Below are positions 1 to 27,691 of a stretch of 33,752 bases of DNA, piece after piece (position 1 is the stretch's first letter; the number at the start of each line of letters is the position of its first letter). The notes beneath the pieces were generated by a model. It made no database searches and had not been told where the DNA came from. It worked only from the letters and a program-made list of their open reading frames with translations. Position numbers and translations under genes: made by a program. Source of the DNA: a virus; the IMG/VR virus record IMGVR_UViG_3300045541_000004, positions 1-33,752 of that record; one strand, given 5' to 3'.

Positions 1-1392
1 TGATACAGTAGCACCACAAGATGGGTCAGTAGGAGATCCATACCAGGCTGTAGCGTTCGCAAAGACATATCCATCTGGAGCACCAATAACTGCCAGATCT
101 CCCTCATTAAAAGAAACCTGCCACCATGTTGGGGCAACTGTGACTAAAGAAACAATATTTGATTGTCCTGAGTACAACGCAAGTGTATCGTTATCAGATC
201 TAATAGCAAACTGAAATGTACTTCCCTGCGGTGCTGTAGAGAATAGGGTGGAGGCTGGAATGGTTATTGACGTTGTAGTGCTTGCAATACCCCAGCCATT
301 CTGAGTAAAGTTTGTTGTTGACCACATGACGGCATACCGCTCTGGCATTACTCCAGATAGGTTTGGCACTGGTGCTGTCCAGGAAAGTTCTACGCCAGAC
401 TCGGTGACATTTAGAGTTAGGTTAGTGGGTGCTGTAAGTCTTGGTGTTAAATCTTCAACTAAACTAGTAAGCCTAACGACCTCATCAATGGCTGCGTCTA
501 GTCTTGCCGTGGCTGCGGCTTGTGCCAATACAGCAGAGTCAAGTGCCGACTGTCCAGACTGTAGATCTTGCTGTGCTGAATTTTTTGCCTGAGTCTCTAC
601 CTCTCCATAGGTGTAGGTATCTGGAGTAGATTGTGTCATTGTAGCAATAACACGAACATTGTCCATTACTGGACCAAAAGCACCTGCCCAGTAACCTGAG
701 TCTTGCATTCTAAAACCAACGTCCCACCTGACGGCATCGTCAGATAGGGTGTATGTTGCACCTCTAGTAATCCAGTCGTGCCATTGTGACCATTCCAGGT
801 TGTAATAGTTTAGTCTGGTGCCTGCCGCATTATAAGTACGGAACTCAATGCGGTAATAGTCTGGGTTATTTATACGATTACCTTCGTTGGTATCGTAGTT
901 CCAAACGTCTACAGCAAAGGTTACTTGCCTTGTTGGACTTGGAAACGTTCCTTGCTGACTAATGTATATACCAGCAGTGTATGAACCCTTAAGCGTACCA
1001 TTATAGATTAATGGTGATGCACCAGTACCGTAAACGGTATTGCTTGCTATAACATTAGACCAGTTAGCAGTGCTATCAAATGTGCCATTTTGTACAACGT
1101 TTTGAGTAGTAGTTGTCGTGGTTCCAGAAATTGTTACCTTAGTAGCTTCCCACGCAGCCAGAGCAGCACTATAGCTTGCCTGGGCCTCGTCTCTAATATC
1201 GGTTGCAGCAGAAACGCTACTATTTGCTAACTGTAGAGTAGCAGATGCACTAGATAGCTCTTGCTGTGCCAAAACTAAAGCTGCCTGGGCCTCTTCTAAA
1301 GTCATTTGATTAGCACTAGATGGTGCAACCCAGAACAATGGCAGAAATGCCAAAATAAGAGCAGCACTGGCTCTTCCTACTTTAAGGTTAAT
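1..1392 (-). CDS. Secreted coiled-coil / beta-sandwich / FN3 protein, 3' end off the window
   Basis: The frame is open for 464 codons to the window edge, so the C-terminus is missing. The start I choose is an ATT at 1392-1390. A Shine-Dalgarno AGGAG (1404-1400) lies 7 bases upstream, and no in-frame ATG, GTG or TTG lies between it and the upstream in-frame stop. Residues 1-27 form a Sec signal peptide: basic n-region (KVGR), hydrophobic core (ALILAFLPLFWV), and a c-region ending APSSA. Then come an Ala/Gln-rich coiled coil (about 30-85), a Thr run, a jelly-roll-like beta domain beginning VVQNGTFDSTANWS (about 98-245) that resembles carbohydrate-binding modules, a second coiled coil (about 260-320), and a fibronectin type III-like domain (about 322-415, with ELSWTAP and a YAVMWS strand). 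It sits alone after the nrdF terminator. A host-surface or adhesion role is inferred. It could instead be a virion fibre, but an N-terminal signal peptide argues against that. Confidence 0.75.
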   Translation of the reverse strand, partial: MNLKVGRASAALILAFLPLFWVAPSSANQMTLEEAQAALVLAQQELSSASATLQLANSSVSAATDIRDEAQASYSAALAAWEATKVTISGTTTTTTQNVVQNGTFDSTANWSNVIASNTVYGTGASPLIYNGTLKGSYTAGIYISQQGTFPSPTRQVTFAVDVWNYDTNEGNRINNPDYYRIEFRTYNAAGTRLNYYNLEWSQWHDWITRGATYTLSDDAVRWDVGFRMQDSGYWAGAFGPVMDNVRVIATMTQSTPDTYTYGEVETQAKNSAQQDLQSGQSALDSAVLAQAAATARLDAAIDEVVRLTSLVEDLTPRLTAPTNLTLNVTESGVELSWTAPVPNLSGVMPERYAVMWSTTNFTQNGWGIASTTTSITIPASTLFSTAPQGSTFQFAIRSDNDTLALYSGQSNIVSLVTVAPTWWQVSFNEGDLAVIGAPDGYVFANATAWYGSPTDPSCGATVS

Positions 1393-1399
1393 ACTATCA

Positions 1400-1404
1400 C
1401 TCCT
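1400..1404 (-). promoter_or_regulatory. Shine-Dalgarno AGGAG for an ATT start
   Basis: AGGAG reads on the minus strand 7 bases before the ATT at 1392. A GTG overlapping this site opens a frame that stops after seven codons, and an ATG further upstream stops after two. This ribosome-binding site therefore points to the ATT as the initiation codon of the secreted protein. Confidence 0.65.
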
Positions 1405-1433
1405 GTGGGGTCTATGGAATGTACTCTTATATC

Positions 1434-1439
1434 ATTATA
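1434..1439 (-). promoter_or_regulatory. -10 box TATAAT upstream of the secreted FN3 protein gene
   Basis: A perfect TATAAT lies between the nrdF terminator and the ATT-start gene, about 42 bases upstream of the start. That would give a leader of roughly 35 bases. No convincing -35 is visible, because that position overlaps the terminator hairpin. The placement suggests the gene has its own transcript. Confidence 0.5.
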
Positions 1440-1454
1440 CTAGACTATATAAAG

Positions 1455-1486
1455 AAAAGGGGCACAGCCTTAGCCATGCCCCTTTT
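1455..1486 (-). terminator. Rho-independent terminator after nrdF
   Basis: Two perfect 10-base arms (1455-1464 and 1477-1486, AAAAGGGGCA pairing with TGCCCCTTTT) surround a 12-base loop. The downstream arm ends in TTTT followed by CTTT on the minus strand. It begins 11 bases after the nrdF stop and ends the nrdI-E-F unit. Confidence 0.85.
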
Positions 1487-1496
1487 ATTGCAGCCT

Positions 1497-4547
<3,051 letters not shown>

Positions 4548-5030: not shown

Positions 5031-5927
5031 TTACTTCAGGAAGGCAAGTCGCTCAGACTTTGGCTTTCCTACGTTGTACTTCTTTACAAGCACGTTGTAC
5101 TGCCACTTTAGCTTACGAACGACCTTCTCCAGGTCTGCCTTAGCAGTGTTTGCTGTGGCTAGATCTGCGGTCAGGGTTGCTACAGCAGCTAGTGCTGCAC
5201 CAAGCTCGGCCTCAACGTTGCGTGGCTGATTAACTGCAATAGTGGCTACAGCAGAAGAGCTAGCAGCAAACGCAGTTACAGTTACATTGCCAGTTACTGG
5301 CAAGGTTACTACATAGCTTACAGTACCAGAAGTGGTAGTCGTAGCAGTTGCAGTAGTGATAACACCATTGGTGTTAATTACTAGATTAACAGTACCGCCA
5401 GACTTTGCATTGTCATACTTGTCAAATGCGGATACAACTACGGACTGAGTAGAGCCAGCCAGACCAGTTGTTGGTGCAGCAAGTGCTACCTTAGCAAGGT
5501 CACCTGCAGTTCCCTTAACGTAGTAGGTAGTCTGAGTGTTACCAACAGTAACAACTACAGAGCCTACAGCTGTGGTCTTAGTAAATACAAATAGCTCTAC
5601 GCTTCCGCTAGTGCTTGCATTTACGGTCAGGGTTGCTGAACCAGAGGCTGCAGTTGCACCAGTCAGGGTTGATAGTAGTAGTGCATTGGTGGCAGTTGCC
5701 GAAACGGTAGTGCCAGAAGCAACTCCCGAAACAGAAATGCTCAATGCATTTGAAGACGATACGTTCTCTGCTGGAACTGGCAATGCAATTGCAGTAGCAG
5801 AAGTCGTACCACCTGTTGCCGATACGGCGGCAACGGTTAGTGTTTGGGTGTTTGCAGATGCTGCAACACCAGTTAGGCCTAGGGTCAATGCTGCGACCAG
5901 GCCAATTGCTAGCTTATTAAGCTTCAT
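5031..5927 (-). CDS. Secreted Ig-like beta-sandwich protein with C-terminal coiled coil
   Basis: The 298-residue protein has a textbook Sec signal peptide: KLNK n-region, core LAIGLVAALTLGLTGVA, cleavage likely after ASA (about residue 25). Residues about 27-235 are Thr/Ala/Val/Ser-rich and low in charge, with alternating beta-strand patterns. One unit reads like an Ig/invasin-type domain (SVVVSAFDKYDNAKSGGTV, about 166-184). A coiled coil follows (about 240-280, with repeated AAVATLTADLATA heptads). The basic tail contains KLKWQYNVLVKKYN. There is no LPXTG motif and no C-terminal membrane span. Surface or S-layer proteins of some actinobacteria have this kind of layout, as I recall it. A host-derived moron that coats or alters the cell surface is inferred. 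It is the last gene of the terminase-containing unit, 22 bases after terL, with AAGGAG before its ATG. Confidence 0.85.
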   Translation of the reverse strand: MKLNKLAIGLVAALTLGLTGVAASANTQTLTVAAVSATGGTTSATAIALPVPAENVSSSNALSISVSGVASGTTVSATATNALLLSTLTGATAASGSATLTVNASTSGSVELFVFTKTTAVGSVVVTVGNTQTTYYVKGTAGDLAKVALAAPTTGLAGSTQSVVVSAFDKYDNAKSGGTVNLVINTNGVITTATATTTTSGTVSYVVTLPVTGNVTVTAFAASSSAVATIAVNQPRNVEAELGAALAAVATLTADLATANTAKADLEKVVRKLKWQYNVLVKKYNVGKPKSERLAFLK

Positions 5928-9713: not shown

Positions 9714-10503
9714 CTAGTGTCTCCAAAGAGTTAAGTTTTATCTCTCCAGAGCCAGCTTTGTCGCAAGCGTCACGAATTGGACACGTCTTACAAATTTTTG
9801 AGTTGGACCTATAGTTCTTGGTTGGCAAGGTCTTATTCTCCCAAGCTGACCGAACCTGTCTCATCCACTCAAATGCGTTCTCTACCCACTTATACATGTA
9901 CTCATTTAATTCAATTGGAAAAATTAAGAGTTCATGGTTGTTCTTGTTTTCATAAATAAGAACCGACTTGCCCTTATTTAGGATCTTCATATAAATCAAG
10001 ATCTGGACTAGGTGCCCAGCCTTTGGCTTACCAGAAATTTTGCGATATTCAAATGCCTCGTGTGGCATTGTTTTAATTTCTCCAAGGAGTTCCTGGTCGT
10101 CCCAATTAAGCATTACGTCACCGAAACCAAAGATTGGTGGATCGCTGTATGTAATCTTAAACTCAGAGTCAACCAGGAACCCTGGAACATTACCCATGGC
10201 TTCCTGAATGCGTTCGTGGGACTTGGTCCCAGCAGTCATGTTGGCAGCACCATAGGCATCTGCGTTGTCAGAGAAGACTGCACCCTCAAATGCTAAATAC
10301 CAGTACCTTGGGCACTCTCCATGAGAGAAGGCAATTGTACTAGGTGCAAAGGTTTTCTTCTGTGTAAACTTGTCTACACGATTAACAGTATAACCAGAGT
10401 TAATCTTTTCAATCAGTGCGTCACGATCAATAAAGGATGGCTTGATAGCTGCATAGCCATTCTCTGCCTTCTCCATTACCTGCTTTAGAAAATTCTTTGC
10501 CAT
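9694..10503 (-). CDS. Cas4-type PD-(D/E)XK exonuclease with iron-sulfur cluster cysteines
   Basis: The 269-residue protein has the full Cas4/RecB-nuclease motif set: H96 (GTKSHERIQ), D129 (GFGDVML), E142-x-K144 (LLGEIKT), and Q167-x3-Y171 (LVQILIYM). Four cysteines placed for a 4Fe-4S cluster are also present: C64 (GECPRYW), then C238-x2-C241-x5-C247 (KICKTCPIRDAC). Such phage enzymes degrade DNA ends and support recombination. Here it lies among recA, exonuclease and resolvase genes. No CRISPR genes or array are present, so a role in spacer acquisition is not supported. The ribosome-binding site before 10503 is weak. Confidence 0.92.
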   Translation of the reverse strand: MAKNFLKQVMEKAENGYAAIKPSFIDRDALIEKINSGYTVNRVDKFTQKKTFAPSTIAFSHGECPRYWYLAFEGAVFSDNADAYGAANMTAGTKSHERIQEAMGNVPGFLVDSEFKITYSDPPIFGFGDVMLNWDDQELLGEIKTMPHEAFEYRKISGKPKAGHLVQILIYMKILNKGKSVLIYENKNNHELLIFPIELNEYMYKWVENAFEWMRQVRSAWENKTLPTKNYRSNSKICKTCPIRDACDKAGSGEIKLNSLETLDEKQAM

Positions 10504-11906: not shown

Positions 11907-12909
11907 CCATCAACTTCTTTCTAATCGAATCCTGCAACTCTAAATCTTCTCTCACCTTTGCTACAAAAGCATCACGACCTTGCAGCTTAGTTCCATCCTC
12001 TAGCTGATACCAGGCACCAGTGCGAGAAACTATCCCCAGCATTTCTGCGGTATCAACTAGATCACCTACGGAATCAATTCCAATATGTTCTCCCCTATAG
12101 TAGAAGTCATACTCAGCACTGTCTCCTGGTGCAGATGTCTTAGAGTTTAAGACTTCCCAACGAACCTTGCGTCCAATCTTCTGCTCAATAATCTTGTCGC
12201 CAACCTTGACCTTGCCCTTGATGGCCTGAGAATCTGAGCTTGATGAGAACAACTTAACAATTGTAGACGACATAAACTGCGTAGTCAAGCCCCCAGTTGG
12301 TGCTGACTGAGTATATGTAGCTTGGATATTGTTTCGTGCTTGAGAAATTGCAATAATCAGTGCAGGCTTCTCACGATTGTTTGCATAGTTAAGCATTAGC
12401 CATGCATGCTTTAAATCCTTAGACTCTGCACCAATCTGCTTAGTTTGATCTAGTGCCTTAAGCTCATCTGAGTCTTTTTCAAAGTATACCGCTGGCAAAA
12501 GCGAGCTAATGCTGTCAATGACAATAAGGTCTACGCCTGCATGCAAAAGTGCAACACCAACATCAACCATGTCGTTAATACTTCTCGCCTCAGAGTAGAT
12601 CAGTTGCGATGTATCTACACCCAAGCTTGTTGCCCACTCTTCATCATACGACATCTCTGCATCAATCCATGCACAGAGCTTGCCTTCTTTTTGTGCGAGA
12701 GCAATTGTCTGCAAGCACAGAGAAGACTTTGCACTTGACTTGCTGCCCCATAGCAGCACTTGCCTACCATAGGGAAATCCTCCACCTAATGCACGATTTA
12801 GACCTGGACTTGGGGTAGGCTGAAACTCTGTCTTAATACCTACGCCTGTTGCCAAACGCTTCCTGATCTTTGGATCAAGTAGTGCCATGGCTTCTTCTAC
12901 TGTTGTCAT
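11899..12909 (-). CDS. recA: RecA-like recombinase
   Basis: The 336-residue ATPase has RecA-family order. Walker A is at 55-62 (GSKSSAKS), the catalytic-glutamate segment at about 82-98 (IDAEMSYDEEWATSLGV, like RecA IDAEHALDPEYARKLGV), and Walker B at 127-132 (DLIVIDSISSLLP). Then come the L1/L2-type region and the SQARNN sensor. The N-terminal PTPSPGLNRALGGGFPYGR corresponds to the RecA entry into the core. Strand exchange during phage recombination is expected. Walker A has Ala where the conserved Gly before Lys is usual (SSAKS, not SSGKT). It overlaps nrdH by 4 bases (ATGA) and the zinc-ribbon gene by 8. Confidence 0.92.
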   Translation of the reverse strand: MTTVEEAMALLDPKIRKRLATGVGIKTEFQPTPSPGLNRALGGGFPYGRQVLLWGSKSSAKSSLCLQTIALAQKEGKLCAWIDAEMSYDEEWATSLGVDTSQLIYSEARSINDMVDVGVALLHAGVDLIVIDSISSLLPAVYFEKDSDELKALDQTKQIGAESKDLKHAWLMLNYANNREKPALIIAISQARNNIQATYTQSAPTGGLTTQFMSSTIVKLFSSSSDSQAIKGKVKVGDKIIEQKIGRKVRWEVLNSKTSAPGDSAEYDFYYRGEHIGIDSVGDLVDTAEMLGIVSRTGAWYQLEDGTKLQGRDAFVAKVREDLELQDSIRKKLMDV

Positions 12910-13151
12910 TGCTTGCTCCTTTCTACAAGACTATTAATCTTTGCTGGGTTGAATCCAGCCCAAGACTCTTCTTCTGTAACCACTACTGGTGCTGACTTAA
13001 ATCCCAACGCCAGAACCTTTTCTAGAGCTGCAGCATCCTGAGTAATGTCAATAGTTGAATACTCAATGCCCTCCCTATCCAAAATTCTTTTTGTCTGGTC
13101 GCATTGCACACACTGTGGCTTTACATAAATCAATACTGATTCATTAGACAT
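12906..13151 (-). CDS. nrdH: NrdH-type glutaredoxin
   Basis: The 81-residue thioredoxin-fold protein has active site C14-V-Q-C17, the usual CxQC of NrdH redoxins. Strand IYVKPQ precedes it and the cis-proline region SAPVVV (about 53-58) follows. Near the C-terminus, WAGFNPAKI matches the NrdH WSGF(R/N)P motif. It would reduce the C-terminal CxxC of NrdE using thioredoxin reductase. It sits between dnaE and recA with overlaps of 8 and 4 bases, far from nrdI-E-F. Electron supply is therefore made in the replication operon and the reductase in another. Confidence 0.94.
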   Translation of the reverse strand: MSNESVLIYVKPQCVQCDQTKRILDREGIEYSTIDITQDAAALEKVLALGFKSAPVVVTEEESWAGFNPAKINSLVERSKQ

Positions 13152-16100
13152 TTTCTACATCCTCCATAATTACTGTTCCGTCCTTAGTTTTTCCAAAACT
13201 AAACTTATATGCTTTACCTTCATCAATCTTCATATATGCCTTTGAGAATGATGTTGGAAAGACTGTGACTGGGTGAAGTTCTCTATTAGTATCCGCAAGA
13301 GTCAGGTATGCCATCTTCTTTCCAGTCTTTGTTACTCGTGGCTTAAATGCTACGACAAACATCTCTTCATCCTTGAATGGTAGCTGACGATACCCCAAGA
13401 ACTTTACAAGAGCAGAGTCTGACGACTTGATCTCGTCCGATGGGATTGCCGTAACAATTCTATTATCGCTAGCAAGAATTAGGTACGTCTTGCCTGGCTC
13501 AATAGCTGTCTGCTCGTCATCAAAAATGCCAACACTACCAGTCTTGTCTAGAATCTCAACACGAGACCAGCCCTTACCACGCTTAATATTCTTAACCATG
13601 CCTAGCAAAACAAACGAACCCTTTTCCTCAAACTCTTCCACGTCATTTATAAAGGCGTAGTAGTGTGGAGGAATGGATACGTTAAACTCTGGCAGATTTA
13701 GATACTCGTACAGGTTCTGCCTGATGTCCTCGTCATTTCTAGGGTTGTCGTCAAACGTTGCAGCACCAGTCAGCCTGAGTGCCTGAAGTGCACGAGAATT
13801 TACTCCGCTATTCTTCTCAAACGTAAATTCTTCTAGCTCCTTGTATGACTTGAATGGTCTCCTGGCCAAATACTTACCAGCAATGTTGTCGCTAATATAC
13901 TTGATTGAGCTTAGCCCAAAGCGAATACCCTTGCCCTCAATCTTAAAGTCAGCATCTGAGTCATTGATGTGTGGCAAACGAATAGGAATATTCATACGCT
14001 TAGCCTCAATCAGATACTCAGTTCTGGCATCTTTGTCGCCCTCATTCTTAAGAATGGAATACATAAACTCAATTGGGTAATAGTACTTCAGCCATGCAGT
14101 CCAGTATGAGAGGGTGCTGTAGGCCACAGCGTGAGACTTGTTAAAAGAATATCCAGCGTGTGCCTCAAAGTCGTGCCACAGTTCTTCTGCGACCTCTGGG
14201 CGTACATATTCGGATGCACCCTTTACGAACCTATCCCTAAACTGATCAAACTCCTTGGCATCTTTCTTCTTACCAATGATCTTACGAACCTTGTCTGCTT
14301 CTGCCATTGACATACCGCCAAGCTCTGTACAAGCCTGCATAACCTGTTCCTGATACAAGATGCAGCCATAGGTCTCAGCAGTAAACTGCTTCATCTTGAC
14401 GTGGTGATACGCAATGTTCTGCTTACCGTGCTTACGAAGAATGTAGTCTTTACCAATGGTATTCATAGCACCTGGACGAACCAAAGCGTTAGAGGCTGCA
14501 AGCTCTGCAAAGTTCTTAACACCCATCTTGACTAGTAGGTTTGTATATGGTGTAGCCTCACACTGGAACACGCCCTTGGTGTATCCGTCAGAAAGCATCT
14601 GGTAGATATTCTTATCTTCCATGTCAATGCCGTGCAAGTCTGGCTCTGCACCAGTTCGCTCTTTAATAATCTTGAGAGTGTCTTGAATAACAGACAAGGT
14701 CTTTAGACCGAGTGCGTCAATCTTAATAAGACCAATCTTCTCTGCCTCTTCCATGTCAACAGCCACAACAGGAATGCGTTCTTTGCTTCCTGGAGAAGTT
14801 CTAGTCTCTAGTGGTGCAAACTTAAAGATTGGTTCCTTGGAAGTAACAACACCTGCTGCGTGAATACCAGTACCACGGATACGACCACGAAGCTGCTCTC
14901 CATAGTTTTCTACCTCTGGATACTTCTCACGGAACCATGCTGCCTGCTTTGAGCTACAATAGTCGTCCCAGGTGTCAACTACCTTCATAACCTTGTTAAC
15001 ATCCGTTAGTGGGATCATCAACACTCGTGCGATGTCACGCACCACGCCCTTATCCTTAAACTGTAGGAATGTTGCAATGGATGCAACGTGGCGATACTGA
15101 CGAACCAAGTAGTCCTTTACCTCTTCACGACGGTTGTCCTGGATATCTGTATCAATATCTGGGAAGTCGTTACGCTCTGGGTTGATAAAGCGGAAAAACA
15201 ATAGGCCATGCTGAATTGGGTCAATGTCTGTGATGTCTAGGGCATAGCAAAGCAAAGAGCCTGCTGCAGAACCACGACCTGGCCCCACCATAATGCCTTC
15301 CTTCTTAGCCCAAGAAATCATATTACGAACCACCAGGAAGTATGGGCCAAAGTTCTTTGCCTCAATTACCTCTAGCTCTTCGTCTAGACGAGCTAGGTAC
15401 TGGTCGTTCTTAATGCCACGCTTTTCTAGTCCTGCAATAGCAAGCTCTCGTAGTTCCTTGTTAGGATTCTGATACTGCACTGGAAGCAGGTCCAGGTGAT
15501 CTTTGATGTCGTAGTCTTCAATCTTGTTTGATACCTCAACAGTGTTGTCGTAGATATCCTGACGATTAATACCCTGGGCCTCCATAGCCTTGTGCATCTC
15601 TTCATCAGAGAGTAGGTGAATCTCAAAGTCACGGAACGTCATTTGGCGGTCTGCCCCATATAGATAATCTAGACGGTCCATAAGATTGTCATGCTTGCAA
15701 GACTTCTCGTAGGTAACATCCTTAACGGTCTTATTTGAATAAGAGTTAAGAATAAGCTTTAGCTCCTGGATTTCTCTCTGTCCAGTGTGAGCGTGGTGAC
15801 AGTCTGGCGTTACGATTGACTTGATTCCAAACTCATCTGCCAGCTCAAGTAGGGTCTTATTAATCTCTGCTGGATTGTGTGGCATAACCTCAATGTAGTA
15901 GTCATCGCCAAAAGTTTCTTTTGCCCAAGTCAAGTGCATCTTTGCAGCAGCAAAGTTGTCTGCCTCAATAGCCTTTGCCAGATATCCAGATAGACATCCA
16001 GAAGTGACAACAAGGCCGTCACGATACTTAGTCAAAATCTCCCAGTCCATGCGTGGCTTCTTAAAGAAGCCCTCTGTCCATGCAAGCTCATTAAGCTTGT

Positions 16101-16419
16101 TAAGGTTCTCTAACCCCCGTGCATTCTTAGCAAGGATAATGAGGTGGTTATAGTTAAGGTCTAGTGGGTCGTTCTTATCTTTCTTATCTTCGTGATCATG
16201 GCGATCTTTAGTAATGTACCCCTCAATACCCAGGATTGGCTTAATGCCATTTTCCTTGGCTACACGATACATCTCACGGTGTCCAGACAGGGATCCGTGG
16301 TCTGTGATAGCAATAGCTGGCATGCCAATCTCTTTTGCACGTTCCACATATTCCTGTGGGGTTGCAATGCCGTCAAAAAGGCTGTAGTGCGTGTGAACGT
16401 GAAGTCCAACGTAGCTCAT
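13144..16419 (-). CDS. dnaE: DNA polymerase III alpha subunit (DnaE)
   Basis: This is a 1091-residue C-family replicative polymerase, slightly shorter than bacterial DnaE1. The PHP domain keeps its putative metal ligands: H7-x-H9, D40-H41 (TDHGS), E66 (GIEGY) and D206 with H208 (PDCHHAH). That suggests a possibly active proofreading site. The palm has catalytic acids D421 and D423 (FPDIDTD) and D568 (KIDALG). GPGRGSAAGSL (379-389) and FNKSHAVAYS (759-768) are family signatures. A C-terminal OB-fold (about 955-1010, VLLGMVKNIKRGKGW) ends the recognised part. It is preceded by its own promoter and an AAGGA site. It is first in the long unit that includes nrdH, recA and terminase. Confidence 0.97.
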   Translation of the reverse strand: MSYVGLHVHTHYSLFDGIATPQEYVERAKEIGMPAIAITDHGSLSGHREMYRVAKENGIKPILGIEGYITKDRHDHEDKKDKNDPLDLNYNHLIILAKNARGLENLNKLNELAWTEGFFKKPRMDWEILTKYRDGLVVTSGCLSGYLAKAIEADNFAAAKMHLTWAKETFGDDYYIEVMPHNPAEINKTLLELADEFGIKSIVTPDCHHAHTGQREIQELKLILNSYSNKTVKDVTYEKSCKHDNLMDRLDYLYGADRQMTFRDFEIHLLSDEEMHKAMEAQGINRQDIYDNTVEVSNKIEDYDIKDHLDLLPVQYQNPNKELRELAIAGLEKRGIKNDQYLARLDEELEVIEAKNFGPYFLVVRNMISWAKKEGIMVGPGRGSAAGSLLCYALDITDIDPIQHGLLFFRFINPERNDFPDIDTDIQDNRREEVKDYLVRQYRHVASIATFLQFKDKGVVRDIARVLMIPLTDVNKVMKVVDTWDDYCSSKQAAWFREKYPEVENYGEQLRGRIRGTGIHAAGVVTSKEPIFKFAPLETRTSPGSKERIPVVAVDMEEAEKIGLIKIDALGLKTLSVIQDTLKIIKERTGAEPDLHGIDMEDKNIYQMLSDGYTKGVFQCEATPYTNLLVKMGVKNFAELAASNALVRPGAMNTIGKDYILRKHGKQNIAYHHVKMKQFTAETYGCILYQEQVMQACTELGGMSMAEADKVRKIIGKKKDAKEFDQFRDRFVKGASEYVRPEVAEELWHDFEAHAGYSFNKSHAVAYSTLSYWTAWLKYYYPIEFMYSILKNEGDKDARTEYLIEAKRMNIPIRLPHINDSDADFKIEGKGIRFGLSSIKYISDNIAGKYLARRPFKSYKELEEFTFEKNSGVNSRALQALRLTGAATFDDNPRNDEDIRQNLYEYLNLPEFNVSIPPHYYAFINDVEEFEEKGSFVLLGMVKNIKRGKGWSRVEILDKTGSVGIFDDEQTAIEPGKTYLILASDNRIVTAIPSDEIKSSDSALVKFLGYRQLPFKDEEMFVVAFKPRVTKTGKKMAYLTLADTNRELHPVTVFPTSFSKAYMKIDEGKAYKFSFGKTKDGTVIMEDVENV

Positions 16420-16457
16420 TATTTTCCTTGGTTGTTGTTGTAAAAAGTTATAGAAGA

Positions 16458-16486
16458 ATTATGACACACTTAGAGGGATATGTCAA
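16458..16486 (-). promoter_or_regulatory. Sigma-70-type promoter for dnaE
   Basis: A perfect -35 TTGACA (16481-16486), a 17-base spacer and -10 CATAAT (16458-16463) are present. TG one base before the -10 makes it an extended -10. Transcription would begin near 16451, leaving a leader of about 30 bases before dnaE. It lies just downstream of the terminator at 16496-16524. Confidence 0.88.
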
Positions 16487-16495
16487 GATAGCAAA

Positions 16496-16524
16496 GATGG
16501 GGGTAGAACATCTCTACCCCCATC
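16496..16524 (-). terminator. Intrinsic terminator after the SSB-like gene
   Basis: A 12-base perfect stem (16496-16507 with 16513-16524, GATGGGGGTAGA arm) has a 5-base loop and is followed by TTTGCT on the minus strand. The U-tract is short. It starts 15 bases after the stop at 16539 and separates the helicase-primase-SSB unit from the dnaE unit. The 119-base gap 16420-16538 contains only this hairpin, the dnaE promoter and leader. Confidence 0.85.
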
Positions 16525-16538
16525 ACTTAGTTTGCTGA

Positions 16539-17192
16539 CTACCAGTCCATGTTAGACGATGTCACCGATGGGGTGTCAAAGCCTAGGTAGAAAGCCTCCT
16601 GCTCTGCATAAGGAATCTTACGCAGTGCGGACTCTAGTGGATATGGCTTTACGCTGCCCCAGTCGTACGGCTCAGAGTCTGGTGCCGATGGAATTAGGGT
16701 GTAGGTGGTTTCAGTGCCCTGACCGTTACGCTTCACCTTCCAGGTGGTGTTTGAGATGCTACCAGTCTCTAGTGCATACTCACGAATAGTGTTGAATGCA
16801 GACTGCTTGCTGATACCCATTGACCAGATTGCAACGTATGGCTCTTCAATGCCGTCGTCCACAAGAACGTTGCAGTAGAAGCGTAGGCGAGCCTTCCAGC
16901 CAGCCTTTGGATCCTTGCGGTGCATTTCCTCAGCCCAGTCACGGCCTTCGGTATCCATGGTATCTACAGCCTTACGCTTGTAGTCCTTTGGATTAGTGTG
17001 CTCCTTGACTACAAGAGCCAAACCACGGTCTGGCGAGTAGTGTGCAGAGTCTTCGTCAAGCTCCTCAATAAAGCGGATCTTGATGCCCTGTCCGTCAGCT
17101 AGCTTTAGCCAACGAACCTTTGGCGAGTTTTCATCATACTTCGGCTTGTCAAGCAGGGCATTGATATTCTTTAGTCCCTTAATAACGCTCAT
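16539..17192 (-). CDS. Single-stranded-DNA-binding-type protein
   Basis: The 217-residue protein has a beta-rich core (about 25-170, with VRWLKLADGQGIKIRFIEEL, LRFYCNVLVDD and VAIWSMG). A short acidic/aromatic C-terminal tip (SNMDW) resembles the acidic tails with which phage SSB proteins contact partners. I see no zinc site like that of T4 gp32. Position directly after the primase gene and just before dnaE supports an SSB role. Sequence alone does not prove it, since these phage proteins lack the classic bacterial SSB signature. AAGGAG lies close before the ATG. Confidence 0.7.
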   Translation of the reverse strand: MSVIKGLKNINALLDKPKYDENSPKVRWLKLADGQGIKIRFIEELDEDSAHYSPDRGLALVVKEHTNPKDYKRKAVDTMDTEGRDWAEEMHRKDPKAGWKARLRFYCNVLVDDGIEEPYVAIWSMGISKQSAFNTIREYALETGSISNTTWKVKRNGQGTETTYTLIPSAPDSEPYDWGSVKPYPLESALRKIPYAEQEAFYLGFDTPSVTSSNMDW

Positions 17193-17217
17193 TTTTCTCC
17201 TTATGTTTGTTGTGTTC

Positions 17218-18162
17218 TTAGTTTAGCATCGCAGCTATTGATTTGTCAAACGATTCGTCAAGATTTTTTATTGCTTCGTCTGGCATGTCACCAATATCTT
17301 TATACTTTTTGTCTATGTTAATTACGGTCACACGTCCTCCGAGCTTTTCTACAAGCTTGCTCTTCATGTTACCGCCTGCTTCATCATTATCTGCAATAAC
17401 GTAAATGTTATTGAAGTATTTTTGTAGTAGGTCTGTTTGGAAGTTGGATACATTAGCACCCAACGTAGCTACCGCTGGAAATCCACACTGATCTAAACGA
17501 ATAGCGTCAAAGGATGACTCTACAACGTATACACGATCTGCTGTCTTTACACGGTGAATATTAAATAATGTCTTGCTCTTTGGCAGCCCTGGAGTATTCT
17601 TAAACTCTTTACCCTCCACAGACCTACCAACAAAGCCAATCTCCATTCCGTCTGGAGAGTGCACAGGTATAGTGACCATGTCCTGCTTTTCTGAAAATCC
17701 TAGCGAAAACTTCTTGACTGATTCCTCAGTGATAAGTCTGCCAAGATAATAACGCATTGCACGTGGGGAGTCCAAAGCCTGTTGGTTTAATCTCTTGATT
17801 AGCACCTGATCATACTGAGTATATTCTGGCTTGGTAACCAAAGCCTTGTCAATAATCTGCTCAATGCTTGACTCAGAGCCTTTTGACTTGATAAACCTAG
17901 CAGACTCAAAATATGTTCTGCCAGTGGTGTGCATAACAAACTCAATAAGGTTTGCAACCTGATGGCAAGAGAAGCAAAAGAATGTTCCAGTAACCTTGTC
18001 AACTTCTCCTGCTGGGGATCTGTGGTTGTTGTGGTATGGACAATAGATGATATAGTCTGAATCTATCTCAGACTCAACAGAGATTCCTGAGCCTGCGAGA
18101 ACTCTAGAGATTTGTTCAGTTGTATAAATGTCAGCGGTTCCACGCCTGTCTCTAGTGCTCAT
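17218..18162 (-). CDS. dnaG: DnaG-type primase
   Basis: The protein makes RNA primers for replication. The N-terminal zinc-binding domain has C41-x2-H44 and C63-x2-C66 (CPYH, CFSC). A Toprim catalytic domain follows with E215 (YVVESSFDA), D258-x-D260 (VIADNDEAGG), and DIGD (289-292) as the later acidic site. The length of 314 residues is short for DnaG because the C-terminal helicase-interaction domain is missing, as in many phage primases. It stands next to DnaB, its natural partner, 92 bases downstream of it, with a promoter in that gap. Confidence 0.93.
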   Translation of the reverse strand: MSTRDRRGTADIYTTEQISRVLAGSGISVESEIDSDYIIYCPYHNNHRSPAGEVDKVTGTFFCFSCHQVANLIEFVMHTTGRTYFESARFIKSKGSESSIEQIIDKALVTKPEYTQYDQVLIKRLNQQALDSPRAMRYYLGRLITEESVKKFSLGFSEKQDMVTIPVHSPDGMEIGFVGRSVEGKEFKNTPGLPKSKTLFNIHRVKTADRVYVVESSFDAIRLDQCGFPAVATLGANVSNFQTDLLQKYFNNIYVIADNDEAGGNMKSKLVEKLGGRVTVINIDKKYKDIGDMPDEAIKNLDESFDKSIAAMLN

Positions 18163-18235
18163 TCTGTTTCCTCTTCTATATAATCTAAATAAATATTCTA
18201 ATGTTTTGCCAAGCTGTAGATGCTTGTGTCTTTAT

Positions 18236-18265
18236 ATTATAGCAACATTTGCTGCTATCCATCAA
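18236..18265 (-). promoter_or_regulatory. Extended -10 promoter for the primase gene
   Basis: -10 TATAAT (18236-18241) is preceded by TGC, giving the extended form TGCTATAAT. A -35-like TTGATG (18260-18265) lies 18 bases further upstream, at the end of the helicase gene. Transcription would start near 18229, leaving a leader of about 67 bases. The remainder of the gap 18163-18235 is AT-rich and ends with GAGGAAAC before the primase ATG. Confidence 0.65.
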
Positions 18266-19481
18266 GACCTTCCATGTCCTTGTACTTGTACCAGCCCTTG
18301 TCAAAGTCTACCTGGACTAGGAACTCACCCATAAATCCGTTACGATTCTTTCTAAATACACACTCAACCACGTCAGAGTTTGTGCCACGACCCAGAGCAA
18401 GCACCCAGTCGGCATCGTAGGCGATTTGACGGCTCCAGGCAGTCTGACCTAGGGTGGGAACTGTGTCTAGCTTTGTAACGTCATCTGGGGTCGCTGAGGA
18501 GATAGCGATAATTGGGACCTCTTCTGCGATAGACAGCAACTTTAGCTCACGAGACAGATTCTTCATACGAACAGTTTCGTTATCTGATTTCTGATTTGGA
18601 GACATAAGCTGTAGATAATCTACGATGATAAAGTCTGGACGATACTGATCAATCTTTCCACGAATAACAGATGGAGTAACTTCTCCACCAGAGTCGTTAG
18701 AAATAATGTGGAACTCAGGCTTACCAGTCAGCTCCTTCTTGTGCCAACGCTTCAGGTCGTCTACGTCTACCTGGCCATTAGAAAGCTTTCTATGGGAGAA
18801 AAGTCCTTCGCCCATAATTGTAAATACACGGTTACGTACTTCAGTTTCGCTCATCTCAAGTGAGATTACTAGTGGTGACTTCCCCTGCTTCCATGCCTGT
18901 ACCGCAAAGTATAGTGATAGCCATGACTTACCAATACCTGGATAGGCAAGCATAACCCCTAGCTGGCCTGGCATAATTCCAGCAGGCAGATAGTTGTCAA
19001 ATCCTGGCAGGCCAGTCTTTACACCGACAGATCCAATGGCCTGCTGAGCCTGTAGATTTGTATAGTAGGCAACAGCATCTTCAATGTCGGTAACGTCAAT
19101 GTCCCTGATGACGGCTGTATTTTTCTTAAGCTCCGATGTTTTTGCAATCAGGCTTTCTAGTGCGTTTGCACTGTGTCCAGACTGAACCTCCGTAGCTGCT
19201 GACTTTAGCAAGCTCTTGATGCTGCTATCCAAGAACTCTTGCTGCAGCTCTTCTAGATGATACTTTGTTGCACCCACGCCATCAACAGGGGAGAAGTCTC
19301 TAAACTTTTCAACAACTAGCGACACTGGGGGGACAGCCTGATTGGCCTCAGAGTACTTCCTAATAAACTCCCAGATGTCGTTGTGGGTAGTCATAATATT
19401 GTCTACGTTTGCCTGTAGCAAAACGTGAATCTGCTTGTCCTGTAGGACTGCTGAAATTAGTTTAGCTTCTGTATTATTCAT
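18255..19481 (-). CDS. dnaB: Replicative DNA helicase (DnaB family)
   Basis: This is a 408-residue ring helicase. The N-terminal helical domain (about 1-120) is short but present. The RecA-fold motor has Walker A AYPGIGKS (179-186), the SLEMS motif with its catalytic glutamate (208-211), Walker B FIIVDYLQL (D288), a Q-loop-like segment near AISSATP, and the arginine-finger segment FRKNRNG near the C-terminus. It overlaps the possible loader gene by 8 bases. DnaB, primase and SSB form one consistent replisome module. Confidence 0.95.
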   Translation of the reverse strand: MNNTEAKLISAVLQDKQIHVLLQANVDNIMTTHNDIWEFIRKYSEANQAVPPVSLVVEKFRDFSPVDGVGATKYHLEELQQEFLDSSIKSLLKSAATEVQSGHSANALESLIAKTSELKKNTAVIRDIDVTDIEDAVAYYTNLQAQQAIGSVGVKTGLPGFDNYLPAGIMPGQLGVMLAYPGIGKSWLSLYFAVQAWKQGKSPLVISLEMSETEVRNRVFTIMGEGLFSHRKLSNGQVDVDDLKRWHKKELTGKPEFHIISNDSGGEVTPSVIRGKIDQYRPDFIIVDYLQLMSPNQKSDNETVRMKNLSRELKLLSIAEEVPIIAISSATPDDVTKLDTVPTLGQTAWSRQIAYDADWVLALGRGTNSDVVECVFRKNRNGFMGEFLVQVDFDKGWYKYKDMEGLDG

Positions 19482-19782
19482 TTAGCCACGCCTTGGCTCT
19501 ACGCCTTAGCTCTGCCCTCTCTTGTTGGTCTCTTTCTAGTTGCTCACGCTTCTCAATAATCTCGTGTGCATAATTTGCAAAATATTTCCATACTGGCTTT
19601 TGTGCTACCTGGAAATAGTATTCTAGCAGGTCATAGCAAAAAGGTAAAGTATATGATTCAATGAGTGCATCTGCAGCCCATTGCTCTACGTTTAGGTTAA
19701 GATTGGCTTTTTGCTCATAGTGCTGCGTGTGCAGCTTAGAGTAGCGACTGAGCAAAGCCATGCGGTCTTTGCGATCTGCCAT
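19474..19782 (-). CDS. Helical protein upstream of dnaB, possible helicase loader
   Basis: The 102-residue, highly charged helical protein has WAADALIESYTLPFCYDLLEYY (split here as WAADALIES and CYDLLEYYF, about 34-57) and PVWKYFANYAHEI in the middle. The C-terminal helix is Arg/Glu-rich and ends KAWLNE. It has no ATPase motif, so it would not be a DnaC type. The stop overlaps dnaB by 8 bases and the start touches the previous gene's stop. A helicase loader or accessory role is inferred from position and helical composition only. Confidence 0.6.
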   Translation of the reverse strand: MADRKDRMALLSRYSKLHTQHYEQKANLNLNVEQWAADALIESYTLPFCYDLLEYYFQVAQKPVWKYFANYAHEIIEKREQLERDQQERAELRRRAKAWLNE

Positions 19783-19991
19783 TACTTATCTTCAATCTCG
19801 CTTTTAGCCTCAGATGTCTTTTCCTGAAGCTTTGATTCAACAAATGCGTAAACACGCTCAAATGCGTCGTTGGTGTTCTCACCATCACGTTTGCTGTCCT
19901 GGACCTCAACGTCAATTCTTAGTGATTGAAAGTTGCCTAGGTTAAGTGTATAGCCAAGTGCTACACGAACCTTTGTGTCTTCGTTATTCAT
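19782..19991 (-). CDS. Conserved small phage protein, unknown function
   Basis: The 69-residue acidic protein reads MNNEDTKVRVALGYTLNLGN at its start, then SLRIDVEVQDSKRDGENTNDA, and a helix FERVYAFVESKLQEK. The pattern VxxGYTLNLGNFxSLRIDV recalls a small protein family I have seen in other phages near replication genes, with no known role. I begin at ATG 19991, because AAGGA lies 9 bases before it and the alternative start at 20024 overlaps the preceding gene. It ends with a TAATG junction to the next gene. Confidence 0.75.
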   Translation of the reverse strand: MNNEDTKVRVALGYTLNLGNFQSLRIDVEVQDSKRDGENTNDAFERVYAFVESKLQEKTSEAKSEIEDK

Positions 19992-20005
19992 ACCCGTTTT
20001 TCCTT

Positions 20006-20551
20006 CTATATAGATTCTGACCAAATCGGAATAAATCTTCCGTCTTCAGTCCTTGTATAAGTCAGTATACCATCACCCATACGCCGTGTCAACTCCTGTC
20101 TTGAAGGAGTTCTGTCATTAGTTATTAGCTTATCTTTTCTTGGCCTACCAGTATGGTAGGAAGCAAGTATATCACGAATCTCAAAGACTTGCGACTCTGA
20201 GTAGTAGCTTCTTACCTGCCACCCAGTTTTACCGCCCTTTTGAGATCCTGTGGGAAAAGGAATGACACCAGTCTTCATTAGGAATGGTAGGTACTTCTTG
20301 TGCCTATTGACCAAGTCTGCGGTTTGTCCTACAGTGTAGGCTCTTTCTCTATTCTTTTTAAAATCACTAATAAGACAGCTTTCAATCTGATCTTCTGTAA
20401 TATTGTAGACGGACATTATTCCGTTAGACTTGTTGTAGTGATGAATGCGAACCAGGCTTCCATTTAAAAACCAAACCTTTTGGTTTGCTTTAATTACTGG
20501 TGCCTCGTTGTAGCCTTCTTCAGCTATTGACTTCTTTTTTGGATTTGCCAT
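20006..20551 (-). CDS. MerR-like winged-helix DNA-binding protein
   Basis: This is a 181-residue basic protein. After an N-terminal beta segment (about 25-60: VWFLNGSLVRIHHYNKSNG) comes AYTVGQTADLVNRHKKYLPF (71-90), then GVIPFP and WQVRSYYSESQVFEIRDIL. That is the helix-turn-helix plus wing pattern of MerR/excisionase-type proteins. A GRPRKDK basic patch follows. It begins 5 bases after the last tail gene and is the first gene of the replication block. It is a candidate regulator or origin-binding protein, but the target is unknown. Confidence 0.65.
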   Translation of the reverse strand: MANPKKKSIAEEGYNEAPVIKANQKVWFLNGSLVRIHHYNKSNGIMSVYNITEDQIESCLISDFKKNRERAYTVGQTADLVNRHKKYLPFLMKTGVIPFPTGSQKGGKTGWQVRSYYSESQVFEIRDILASYHTGRPRKDKLITNDRTPSRQELTRRMGDGILTYTRTEDGRFIPIWSESI

Positions 20552-20556
20552 GGTTA

Positions 20557-21003
20557 CTACCCATTTGCTGGAATACCGACGGCAATCATGTTTACGCCAA
20601 CAGAAACATTTCCGTTAGTTGCAAACTTTACTACGCCATCAATCTTGCTGGTGGTCACAGTTTTAATTACAACACTTGCTGCATTTCCAACCGAAGATCC
20701 ACCATTAAAAATAGTTGCAGTTACGATTGGTGGATAGGAAAAGTCTGTGTCAAACTCGTAAGAGAATGGAATCTCTTCTCCAGAAATTACTGGCTTTTCA
20801 CTAGCAATCACAACGTGGGCGGCAACCATTCTTGTCTCCATGTTCTTGATGCTCTCTCTTCCACGAGCTGGGGTGTGAATAGTGAAGAACTTATAATTGG
20901 ATGGAGATATCTGCTTGGCAACATCGTTAATTGCCGAAGCCAGCTGAGCAATGTATTGAACGTCTAGTGGTTGACCAGACTGAGGAGTAGGAATTTTTGC
21001 CAT
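20557..21003 (-). CDS. Small tail fibre / tip protein, probably leaderless
   Basis: The 148-residue protein begins with a helical segment (VQYIAQLASAINDVAKQI, about 15-32). A beta-rich C-terminal half follows, with SYPPIVTATIFNGG and ending GVNMIAVGIPANG. This end-pattern is one I associate with phage fibre tips. It closes the tail module. The ATG at 21003 has no Shine-Dalgarno. Instead an extended -10 box ends 6 bases before it. Confidence 0.65.
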   Translation of the reverse strand: MAKIPTPQSGQPLDVQYIAQLASAINDVAKQISPSNYKFFTIHTPARGRESIKNMETRMVAAHVVIASEKPVISGEEIPFSYEFDTDFSYPPIVTATIFNGGSSVGNAASVVIKTVTTSKIDGVVKFATNGNVSVGVNMIAVGIPANG

Positions 21004-21009
21004 AATTAT

Positions 21010-21038
21010 ATTATATCAGATGTCAGGACTCTTGTCCT
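21010..21038 (-). promoter_or_regulatory. Extended -10 promoter with leaderless geometry
   Basis: TGATATAAT is at 21010-21018, with -10 TATAAT at 21010-21015. A -35-like AGGACA at 21033-21038 gives a spacer of 17. Exactly 6 bases separate the -10 from the ATG at 21003, so the predicted start site is the A of the start codon. The -35 overlaps the inverted repeat 21024-21039. Confidence 0.65.
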
Positions 21039-21184
21039 GGATCTAGCCTAACTATTGGAGACCAGGCAGACGCTCTGTTTCTATCTTCAGAGATGATTCT
21101 GTATCTTACTAGATACTGCTCTCCTGGAGCTAGTTCTGGCAATTCCAAGTCAGATATTGCCACTTCCTGAATCTCTTCGTTCAT
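21023..21184 (-). CDS. 53-residue fibronectin-like tail mini-protein
   Basis: The frame runs from an ATG at 21184, whose A is the last base of the preceding TGA, to a TGA at 21023. After an acidic N-terminus, residues 17-50 resemble the C-terminal strands of an FN3 domain: LAPGEQYLVRYRIISEDRN, then SAWSPIVRLDPG. The pattern YxVRYRxxSEDxNRxSxWSP is found in small structural proteins of T4-like and marine phages as I recall them. It is probably a tail decoration or fibre accessory. It lies between two tail genes. Confidence 0.8.
   Translation of the reverse strand: MNEEIQEVAISDLELPELAPGEQYLVRYRIISEDRNRASAWSPIVRLDPGQES
21024..21039. repeat. Short inverted repeat at the promoter of the tail-tip gene
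   Basis: Perfect 6-base arms CAGGAC and GTCCTG surround TCTT. The repeat overlaps the stop codon of the 53-residue gene and the -35 of the promoter at 21010-21038. It could be an operator or a weak terminator for the upstream tail message. The sequence cannot tell which. Confidence 0.4.
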
Positions 21185-22296
21185 CAAATCACATCCATAG
21201 CAAATCTAAATTCAACAAAGTTTTTAGTATTAGGACTCTTTACTATAGGGGTGCCGTCTGTATTCTTAATAACTGTGTACCCAACCAAACCATACAGTGG
21301 GTTGTCTAGTGTCTTATTCTCAAGTCTCATTCCGTCTAGATTTACATAGTAGCGATCAGAAGCATTTCCTGAGTCATTTATTACCGTTGCAAAGACACGA
21401 ATAGTTGTTGCGTCTGCCCAAGAAAAGTTTGAAGATAGATAGAGCTCTGACAGCTGCTTAGAAACAACGAAATATCTATTATTATCAAAAGAGTTTATTT
21501 CGTCATTCTGCAGGATGACATCAAATCTGGCGTGTGGCGTATTAGATGCCGAGCTTTCTGTGCCAAGAAACTCTACCCTAACAAGAATTTTATCTATGGT
21601 CTCTCCAGACTCTGGGCCTACCAGACCATCTGCTACGCTAAATGCGAGTGCTAGCTCATCTGCTGGGCCTTGCCTGGATAAGTCGAACTTAGTTCCAGTT
21701 AGGTGGATGTGTGGCCTGCTATTTGTTATTGTATCTATAATTGAGCCAGAAGACAGTGAGAGGTTTGAGAAGTCTCCTCTAATTCCTATTACACTATTCA
21801 AAAACCTGGTTGTTTCATATCTAGCAACCCTTTCTGTCTGCCTTAGCACTGGATTGTTCGCATTAGATAAAAATGTTTCTCCAGTTAGTGGCGACGTCCC
21901 AAGTGCCGACACTGCAAGATCATGAGCAACCCAGCCTTCCGCATCAGAGAACTTTATGAGCGTTCTGCTGTCCGATAGGCCTGCATCTGGGTTTGATCCT
22001 GCTGAGTAGACACCAATTTCAGATATCTCATATCGCTCTTCTGTTGGCAACTCTGCAGAGAACACAATTTTTGATACGCCATCCTCAACAAGGTAGCCCC
22101 TTGATGTAATCGGTACTCGGAACATTTCAAAGTCTAGGCTAGTCTTGGTAGAAAACTCTGCCTTTTGCTCATCCGTAAATTGATCTTGTGCAGATAGTGG
22201 CTTTGGCCCACAGCCTAGTGCGATGTAGGATGCGTAGGCTGGCGTTTGCCCAATCATATATTTTGCAAAGATAGCTTTGCCTTTGTCTGTAATCAT
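21184..22296 (-). CDS. Tail fibre-type / baseplate protein
   Basis: The 370-residue beta-rich protein begins MITDKGKAIFAKYMIGQTP, the kind of opening found in phage tail-fibre N-termini that attach to the baseplate. SRGYLVEDGVSKIVFSAELP and RYEISEIGVYSAG (about 85-120) match the same fibre family. The C-terminal half is a long beta domain with LTGTKFDLSRQGPADELALA and strands around RVEFLGTE. Identity as a fibre component is reasonable. The receptor-binding end is not obvious. It abuts the 53-residue gene (TGATG) and the linker-protein gene. Confidence 0.72.
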   Translation of the reverse strand: MITDKGKAIFAKYMIGQTPAYASYIALGCGPKPLSAQDQFTDEQKAEFSTKTSLDFEMFRVPITSRGYLVEDGVSKIVFSAELPTEERYEISEIGVYSAGSNPDAGLSDSRTLIKFSDAEGWVAHDLAVSALGTSPLTGETFLSNANNPVLRQTERVARYETTRFLNSVIGIRGDFSNLSLSSGSIIDTITNSRPHIHLTGTKFDLSRQGPADELALAFSVADGLVGPESGETIDKILVRVEFLGTESSASNTPHARFDVILQNDEINSFDNNRYFVVSKQLSELYLSSNFSWADATTIRVFATVINDSGNASDRYYVNLDGMRLENKTLDNPLYGLVGYTVIKNTDGTPIVKSPNTKNFVEFRFAMDVI

Positions 22297-23058
22297 CTAT
22301 TCTCCTGTATATATTGTATCATCTAGGAGGGAGCCAGAGGAAACAACTTGAACCTCTACCAACTCATCTTTTTGAATATCCTTTAGCTGTATGATAACCT
22401 TATTGTCGCTAAACGAAACATTATTTCCTGTAGATGTTGGTATCTTTGAGTTTAGTTTTATCGGAAACCTATTAAACACTTTGTCTAAGGTTTCTGAAAG
22501 ATAAATTATATTGTTTGGATTGTAAGCCTGAGACACCTCTTTTGCATCAGAGATTGGCTCATATGTTACGGACTGGCCATTAATCAGGTCGCTTCTAGAA
22601 ATAGATATTAGCTCTTGGCCACCAATGTCGTTAAGAATAATTGAAGCGATCTGGTCCGCTGGAACTGGTATTTCTGATACCGCTCGCACTATGTCTGGAT
22701 CAGCTGGTTTTACACTACCAGAAGATGTTACTAGCTTTTTCTCTGGTGAATCTGGCACAGACGATACGCCACCAGCAGATCCTCCAGACGAACCTCCAGA
22801 TGAACCTCCAGATGAAGTAGATGAAGTAGATGAAGTAGTCGTTGTAGGCTTGGTCGTTGTAGGCTTCGTAGTCGTAGGCTTTGTTGTCTTAGGCTTAGTT
22901 GTTGTAGGCTTCGTGACCTTTACTGCAGTTTGGCTAGTTGCCGATGCTTTTGCTGCCGCAGATGTGATGTTCTGCTGAACATATTTTGGCAACGAGTTAA
23001 AGCCTGGAGCCTTTTTAGCATTTTCTGCTGCCCTGGCTGCGTTGTCTGCTAACCCCAT
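22297..23058 (-). CDS. Tail protein with Lys-Pro-Thr and Ser/Gly low-complexity linker
   Basis: The 253-residue protein has a short N-terminal helical Ala-rich segment (about 1-45), a linker of KPTTT repeats then TSS and GGSS repeats (about 48-95), and a folded C-terminal half (about 120-253: IASIILNDIGGQELISISRS, DKVFNRFPIKLN). The linker likely separates two domains of a tail structure. It lies between the large hub protein and the fibre gene, 3 bases after the former. No known family recognised. Confidence 0.65.
   Translation of the reverse strand: MGLADNAARAAENAKKAPGFNSLPKYVQQNITSAAAKASATSQTAVKVTKPTTTKPKTTKPTTTKPTTTKPTTTTSSTSSTSSGGSSGGSSGGSAGGVSSVPDSPEKKLVTSSGSVKPADPDIVRAVSEIPVPADQIASIILNDIGGQELISISRSDLINGQSVTYEPISDAKEVSQAYNPNNIIYLSETLDKVFNRFPIKLNSKIPTSTGNNVSFSDNKVIIQLKDIQKDELVEVQVVSSGSLLDDTIYTGE
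22837..22911 (-). repeat. Five 15-base repeats encoding KP(T/K)TT
   Basis: Five in-frame 15-base units, each containing GGCTT on the plus strand, encode KPTTT or KPKTT in the linker. The 12-base and 9-base repeats just left of it (about 22784-22832) encode Gly-Gly-Ser-Ser and Ser-Ser-Thr. Such arrays may change length by slippage. Confidence 0.85.
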
Positions 23059-23061
23059 TTA

Positions 23062-27690: not shown

Positions 27691-27691
27691 T

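Follow-up and report, generated by a model that had tools for sequence, protein, structure and literature searches.

The question raised by this locus is whether a phage gene for a predicted secreted protein truly begins at AUU and, if it does, why so poor a start codon has been kept. The window, that is, the whole stretch of DNA that was analyzed, is a 33.75-kb phage record. The finding lies on its minus strand, where the order is nrdI, nrdE, nrdF, a terminator, TATAAT, AGGAG, and the ATT gene. The features on which the argument rests are the following.

1..1392, minus strand: coding sequence of a putative secreted modular surface protein, read from the ATT (the first 464 aa; truncated by the window end)
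1390..1392, minus strand: ATT start codon, by direct reading (among relatives, 77 distinct sequences have ATT/ATC/ATA in the same column, 7 have TTG, and L046 has ATG)
1312..1392, minus strand: predicted Sec signal peptide INLKVGRASAALILAFLPLFWVAPSSA (12-residue hydropathy peak 2.55; cleavage after A27 judged by eye)
1393..1428, minus strand: short 5' leader of type 2, CATTCC...ACCCC...AGGAGTGAT (a fold pairing CATTCC over GGAGTG is predicted in the window and unproven)
1400..1404, minus strand: Shine-Dalgarno sequence AGGAG, 7 nt ahead of the ATT
1432..1434, minus strand: in-frame TGA stop, with ATG, GTG, and TTG absent between it and the ATT
1434..1439, minus strand: TATAAT, the -10 element of a predicted promoter that would belong to the gene itself, kept in relatives, often as TGnTATAAT
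1455..1486, minus strand: intrinsic terminator, called strong, at the end of the upstream nrdIEF transcript
1497..2462, minus strand: nrdF, the conserved upstream neighbor, which serves as phylogenetic marker

The in-frame codons after the TGA are TAT AAG AGT ACA TTC CAT AGA CCC CAC AGG AGT GAT AGT ATT, and the earliest in-frame ATG, GTG, or TTG is a TTG at 1353, codon 14, within the hydrophobic core of the signal peptide, which is directly followed by the residues NQ. The sequence-only reading had claimed that ATT at 1392 is the only start between the upstream in-frame stop and the signal peptide and that it sits 7 bases after AGGAG, and both claims held (AGGAG at 1404-1400, ATT at 1392-1390). 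The GTG that it placed at 1402 lies instead at 1400, out of frame with the signal peptide, and reads GTG ATA GTA TTA ACC TTA AAG TAG. Because TATAAT stands just upstream and the nrdF transcript has its terminator at 1486-1455, the ATT gene likely has its own short-leader transcript, an inference from sequence alone. A second predicted secreted protein, encoded at 5031-5927 on the minus strand (MKLNKLAIGLVAALTLGLTGVAASA...), has a weak Big_1 match and a normal ATG start.

Several lines of evidence indicate that the ATT is the true start. First, it recurs. Many metagenomes contributed to a set of 84 distinct leader and start sequences in IMG/VR, of which 68 have ATT as the start, 5 ATC, 4 ATA, and 7 TTG; one further relative, L046, has ATG. 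ATT, ATC, or ATA (AUH) thus stands 5-9 nt after GGAG in 77 distinct relatives, which is beyond chance. Homologs of the window protein are encoded at 20 loci, most of which repeat ATT, either at the site matching that of the window or at the site that the Shine-Dalgarno sequence marks; among distant homologs behind other leaders, L015-L017 start at ATG and L018 and L019 at GTG. In further phages the gene right after nrdF encodes a signal-peptide protein with a different body in the same arrangement. Complete relatives are about 470-830 aa long. A scan blind to the start codon, which used the leader hairpin alone (TTGTTAG-N3-16-CTAACAAGGAG), returned 75 loci, and most of these combine the hairpin and an extended -10 with AAGGAG, an AUH codon, and a signal peptide, the same result as the 84; the exceptions are half a dozen chance matches and the L104/L105 group with TTG. 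Another pattern, CCAGCTACCCCAACWAGGAGTGA, was poorly designed and matched one locus only.

Second, the coding signature starts exactly at the AUH codon. Substitutions by codon position 1/2/3 number 1229/663/1782 in codons 2-28, a coding pattern, and 1066/1112/1149 in the 36 nt upstream of the start read in the same frame, where no such pattern is seen. Furthermore, no upstream reading frame is preserved, since the spacers between GGAG and the start, mostly 5, 6, 7, 8, or 9 nt, cover all three frames. Several relatives also have an in-frame TAA that overlaps the Shine-Dalgarno sequence.

It could be objected that an ordinary start exists after all, through an indel, a misassembly, a GTG within the Shine-Dalgarno sequence, or an internal TTG or ATG. 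In support, 10 of the 84 sequences do have an upstream in-frame canonical codon, several of them a GTG inside the Shine-Dalgarno sequence: the GTG of AGGAGTG is in frame in L005, L012, L068, and L037, and an ATG is in frame in L025. However, this GTG overlaps the Shine-Dalgarno sequence and does not fall in the signal-peptide frame in the window, L004, L010, L013, L014, and others, whereas the internal candidates sit in or past the core of the signal peptide. An upstream or internal canonical start is rejected for the window and for the 74 relatives of the 84 that lack an in-frame upstream ATG, GTG, or TTG. The sequence-only reading had offered one missing or extra base in this assembly as its alternative, and it would have been undone by relatives that carry a canonical start with ATT seen here only. 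Neither proved to be the case: most relatives keep ATT across many independent metagenome assemblies, and an indel peculiar to this assembly is thereby excluded, although raw reads were not examined. We consider an ordinary start very unlikely.

Very little weight can likewise be given to a start in another frame, at a TTG or ATG of the leader hairpin, with a later -1 slip into the signal-peptide frame, for which CCCAAAA in L002-type leaders would be one candidate site. For this hypothesis, L002-type leaders have a hairpin-loop ATG in the right frame, a Shine-Dalgarno sequence, and C CCA AAA. Against it, 50 of the 77 AUH leaders have no ATG, GTG, or TTG open through the AUH codon in any frame, and 18 of the 77 have one solely in another frame; no slippery heptamer is found there in the window (by eye); and the replacements by ATG and TTG fall exactly at the AUH column. 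Frameshifting at CCCAAAA is rejected in general and remains possible only in L002-type leaders. The C CCA AAA heptamer after the Shine-Dalgarno sequence occurs in many type-1 leaders (L002-type, CCCAAAATT) and is in frame with the hairpin-loop ATG in a few of them.

The AUH-start kind of gene is single in each of five long phage contigs (G005, G008, G013, G016, and G018). The motif scan behind this count missed the copy of G002, which has AGGAAG; its ATT start was seen as L023. We conclude that the AUH codon, carried by one gene per genome, is a true and conserved start site and not an assembly error, a conclusion that rests on sequence evidence alone.

How strictly the codon is held can be read on the nrdF tree of 65 phages, which requires seven start-codon changes: ATA three times, ATC twice, ATG once, and TTG once (the direction is unrooted). 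Only two of the seven cross between AUH and canonical starts, though AUG is one base away. The ATG of L046 (CAAGGAGACCCCAAAATGAAAACCCC) replaces ATT in a leader otherwise near-identical to that of L020 (...AAAATTAAAACCCC). AUH is not indispensable, because one clade carries TTG in its column and one phage ATG. Third positions of nrdF change a median of 13 times on this tree, and its conserved Ile codons change 4-13 times at the third position, compared with seven at the start codon. The proposal that the third base of the start is conserved beyond that of Ile codons is therefore unsupported; within AUH, ATT is not extremely favored, and the bias may be partly compositional. The telling feature is that G at the third position, which would give the best start codon, AUG, is nearly absent.

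The neighboring signals are strong. A Shine-Dalgarno match of at least 5 nt is found in about 27% of ordinary genes in these phages, by comparison with which the AUH gene is unusually strong. In 61 leaders a hairpin adjoins GGAG, with a few compensatory or G-U changes. In type-1 leaders, such as L102, L110, and L149, a 7-bp hairpin ending at GGAG lies at or beside the predicted start of the transcript, and it is conceivable that this hairpin protects the 5' end of the mRNA. In L104, L105, L115, L118, L130, and others, the leader hairpin is followed by AAGGAG TCT ATG CAA TAA A TTG AAA AAA, a mini-ORF of two codons whose stop abuts a TTG start in place of the AUH start; it may point to translational coupling as another weak-start device.

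These relatives form a large group of freshwater phages with one such secreted protein of sugar-binding type per genome. Among named phages, the closest by terminase are Streptomyces phages, Gilson among them (about 54%), and the closest by NrdF are Mycobacterium and Gordonia phages. On indirect evidence, the similarity of NrdF to that of freshwater Microbacteriaceae together with the terminase match, we infer that the hosts are freshwater Microbacteriaceae or related actinobacteria. No homologs of the AUH proteins tested were found among 50,697 named phages (tblastn). A leader copied from the host is rejected: the leader pattern is absent from about 85,000 GTDB genomes, and in bacteria no AUH-type gene follows nrdF.

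The protein is predicted to be a modular ectodomain comprising a coiled coil, a beta-sandwich or PA14 domain, fibronectin type III (fn3), a SUEL-type lectin, and a conserved C-terminal segment, a prediction that rests on a model and partial structure. Three modules are assigned in the window.

448..1299, minus strand: two long antiparallel helices with an inserted beta-sandwich (residues 32-315), from the AlphaFold2 model of L010, the sandwich at low confidence (pLDDT about 43-70)
142..432, minus strand: predicted fibronectin type III domain (Pfam and structural matches)
1..120, minus strand: beginning of a predicted SUEL-type lectin domain, the rest outside the window (lectin of PDB 8suf, TMt 0.71, rmsd 1.7)

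The model of L010 (765 aa, mean pLDDT 66.8) places in order a signal helix, the two long helices that flank the beta-sandwich, fn3, a lectin-like domain, a disordered linker rich in Pro and Glu, and a C-terminal helical part of low confidence. Among 22 members, Pfam finds PA14 in four (best E 1.4e-11), SUEL in five (best 1.2e-4), and fn3 (best 4.7e-6); in L010 itself fn3 and SUEL score below the Pfam cut-off, and the lectin part matches the fold of 8suf (TMt 0.71). At the C-terminus most members have a stretch of moderate hydrophobicity with a basic tail, possibly a membrane anchor. Behind the common leader and signal peptide the bodies are swapped among MTLEEAQ, CVNPGQ, CDTY/CDTH, and RAEYDA types, and the C-terminal third of the proteins has a Pro/Glu-rich linker and a conserved segment, GADMSPQVRE. 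Kinship with the phage's own tail proteins is rejected, as no same-genome homolog of the AUH protein was found in the four phages tested. We infer that the protein is displayed at the surface and binds glycans, perhaps with a part in superinfection exclusion.

The explanation that we favor, and consider likely as a whole in the absence of expression, proteomic, or ribosome-profiling data, is a throttle of the infC type on a surface protein. Translation would begin at the AUU at 1392, presumably with fMet, where a strong promoter, a short leader, and a Shine-Dalgarno sequence of unusual strength recruit the ribosome. Initiation would be held low by the near-cognate codon, which belongs to the class rejected by IF3 (AUU, exchanged for AUC and AUA in relatives), and output would go up if IF3 became limiting relative to 30S subunits. 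The protein so held down would be secreted, of glycan-binding type, and probably displayed on the infected cell, where excess would be costly. Low initiation, sensitivity to IF3, timing in infection, and the role at the surface are all inferred from sequence alone.

Discrimination by IF3 is probably intact in the likely hosts, because infC starts at ATC or ATT in all 10 bacteria read, which are freshwater Microbacteriaceae and allied actinobacteria identified by similarity of nrdF. In Streptomyces, where infC starts at ATC, the GTC start of sigR is repressed by IF3 (PMC5472188), and in Staphylococcus aureus AUU and AUA starts with an extended Shine-Dalgarno sequence yield about 10% as much as AUG, with the output of one depending on the medium (PMC13009471). 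Given these precedents, the infC starts of the likely hosts, and the failure to find a phage IF3 or special initiator in long relatives, the infC-type translational throttle is the best-supported mechanism. The suggestion of the sequence-only reading that AUU links expression to the state of translation through IF3 fits, on the basis of the AUC and AUU starts of likely-host infC and the published AUU, AUA, and GTC starts, and is unmeasured.

Recoding of AUU by a dedicated initiator tRNA or a phage IF3 is an alternative that we regard as highly improbable. In its favor, most long relatives carry tRNAs, and G013 has an initiator-like tRNA-Met(CAU). However, the tRNA-Ile genes found (GAU, UAU) do not resemble initiators, and AUH is used only once per genome. 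No AUU-reading initiator was found among the tRNAs of long relatives, IF3_C is absent from 21 records of long relatives, and the window, a fragment of a genome, has no tRNA. The initiator-like tRNA-Met(CAU) of G013, a phage with an ATA start, is one of 22 tRNAs, has a weak 1-72 pair, and lies at about 10174-10251 on the minus strand of L205 (G013 contig 12001-32000).

A more serious rival holds that AUU is a constant damper on a protein needed in small amounts, with no response to changes of IF3 in infection. It has a precedent in pcnB (Binns and Masters 2002, cited in PMC13009471), the AUU of S. aureus cvfC1 gave no medium effect (PMC13009471), and TTG, a canonical weak start, stands in for AUH in one clade. 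Against it, a weak Shine-Dalgarno sequence or promoter would suffice, yet strong ones are conserved with AUH. A damper is not excluded thereby, and sequence data cannot separate it from an infection switch, although we lean slightly against it. On a bolder version of the throttle, which we offer only as a possibility, the host's IF3 autoregulation signal has been turned into an infection sensor: a conserved 5' cassette of extended -10 promoter, 5'-terminal hairpin, strong Shine-Dalgarno sequence, and AUU, set ahead of exchangeable surface-lectin bodies, would confine most synthesis of the protein to times in infection when IF3 drops relative to ribosomes.

Known systems resemble the phage gene in part. 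Like it, infC (AUU in Escherichia coli, AUC in Streptomyces) has a near-cognate start behind a Shine-Dalgarno sequence; however, infC has a housekeeping role and is controlled by the protein that it encodes, whereas the phage gene encodes an unrelated surface protein for which direct feedback is impossible. The Streptomyces sigR gene (PMC5472188) is also actinobacterial, with a conserved, IF3-repressed non-canonical start, but this start is GTC and not AUH, sigR is a cellular regulator, and the IF3 effect was shown experimentally there and not for the phage gene. E. coli pcnB (AUU) and S. aureus cvfC1 (AUU) and ccpN (AUA) likewise have weak starts, and in the latter two the start is conserved with an extended Shine-Dalgarno sequence and about 10% of AUG output (PMC13009471); these are single cellular genes, whereas the phage leader is shared by exchangeable gene bodies. 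Bacteriophage T4 gene 26 reportedly has an internal AUU start (Nivinskas et al. 1992), also in a phage, but it yields a shorter product, does not serve as the principal start of a secreted protein, and has no known conservation. Proteins of uncultured Caudovirales phages with PA14, SUEL-lectin, and fn3 modules (BFVD A0A6J5KND8 and A0A6J5NGG5) show 22-24% identity in structural alignment; the comparison covers the modules, and gene callers restricted to ATG, GTG, and TTG would cut off an AUH start and the signal peptide.

A handful of cellular genes are known to start at AUU, and the papers that we found report no AUU start conserved across a phage group. The conserved AUH start is probably a built-in brake on a surface protein, a reading for which there are no expression data. 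These phages offer a natural case for asking why evolution keeps a bad start codon: dozens of diverged phages carry AUU, AUC, or AUA, in one gene each, with the other signals strong. Moreover, gene callers limited to ATG, GTG, and TTG miss the signal peptide, and surface proteins are thereby mistaken for cytoplasmic ones.
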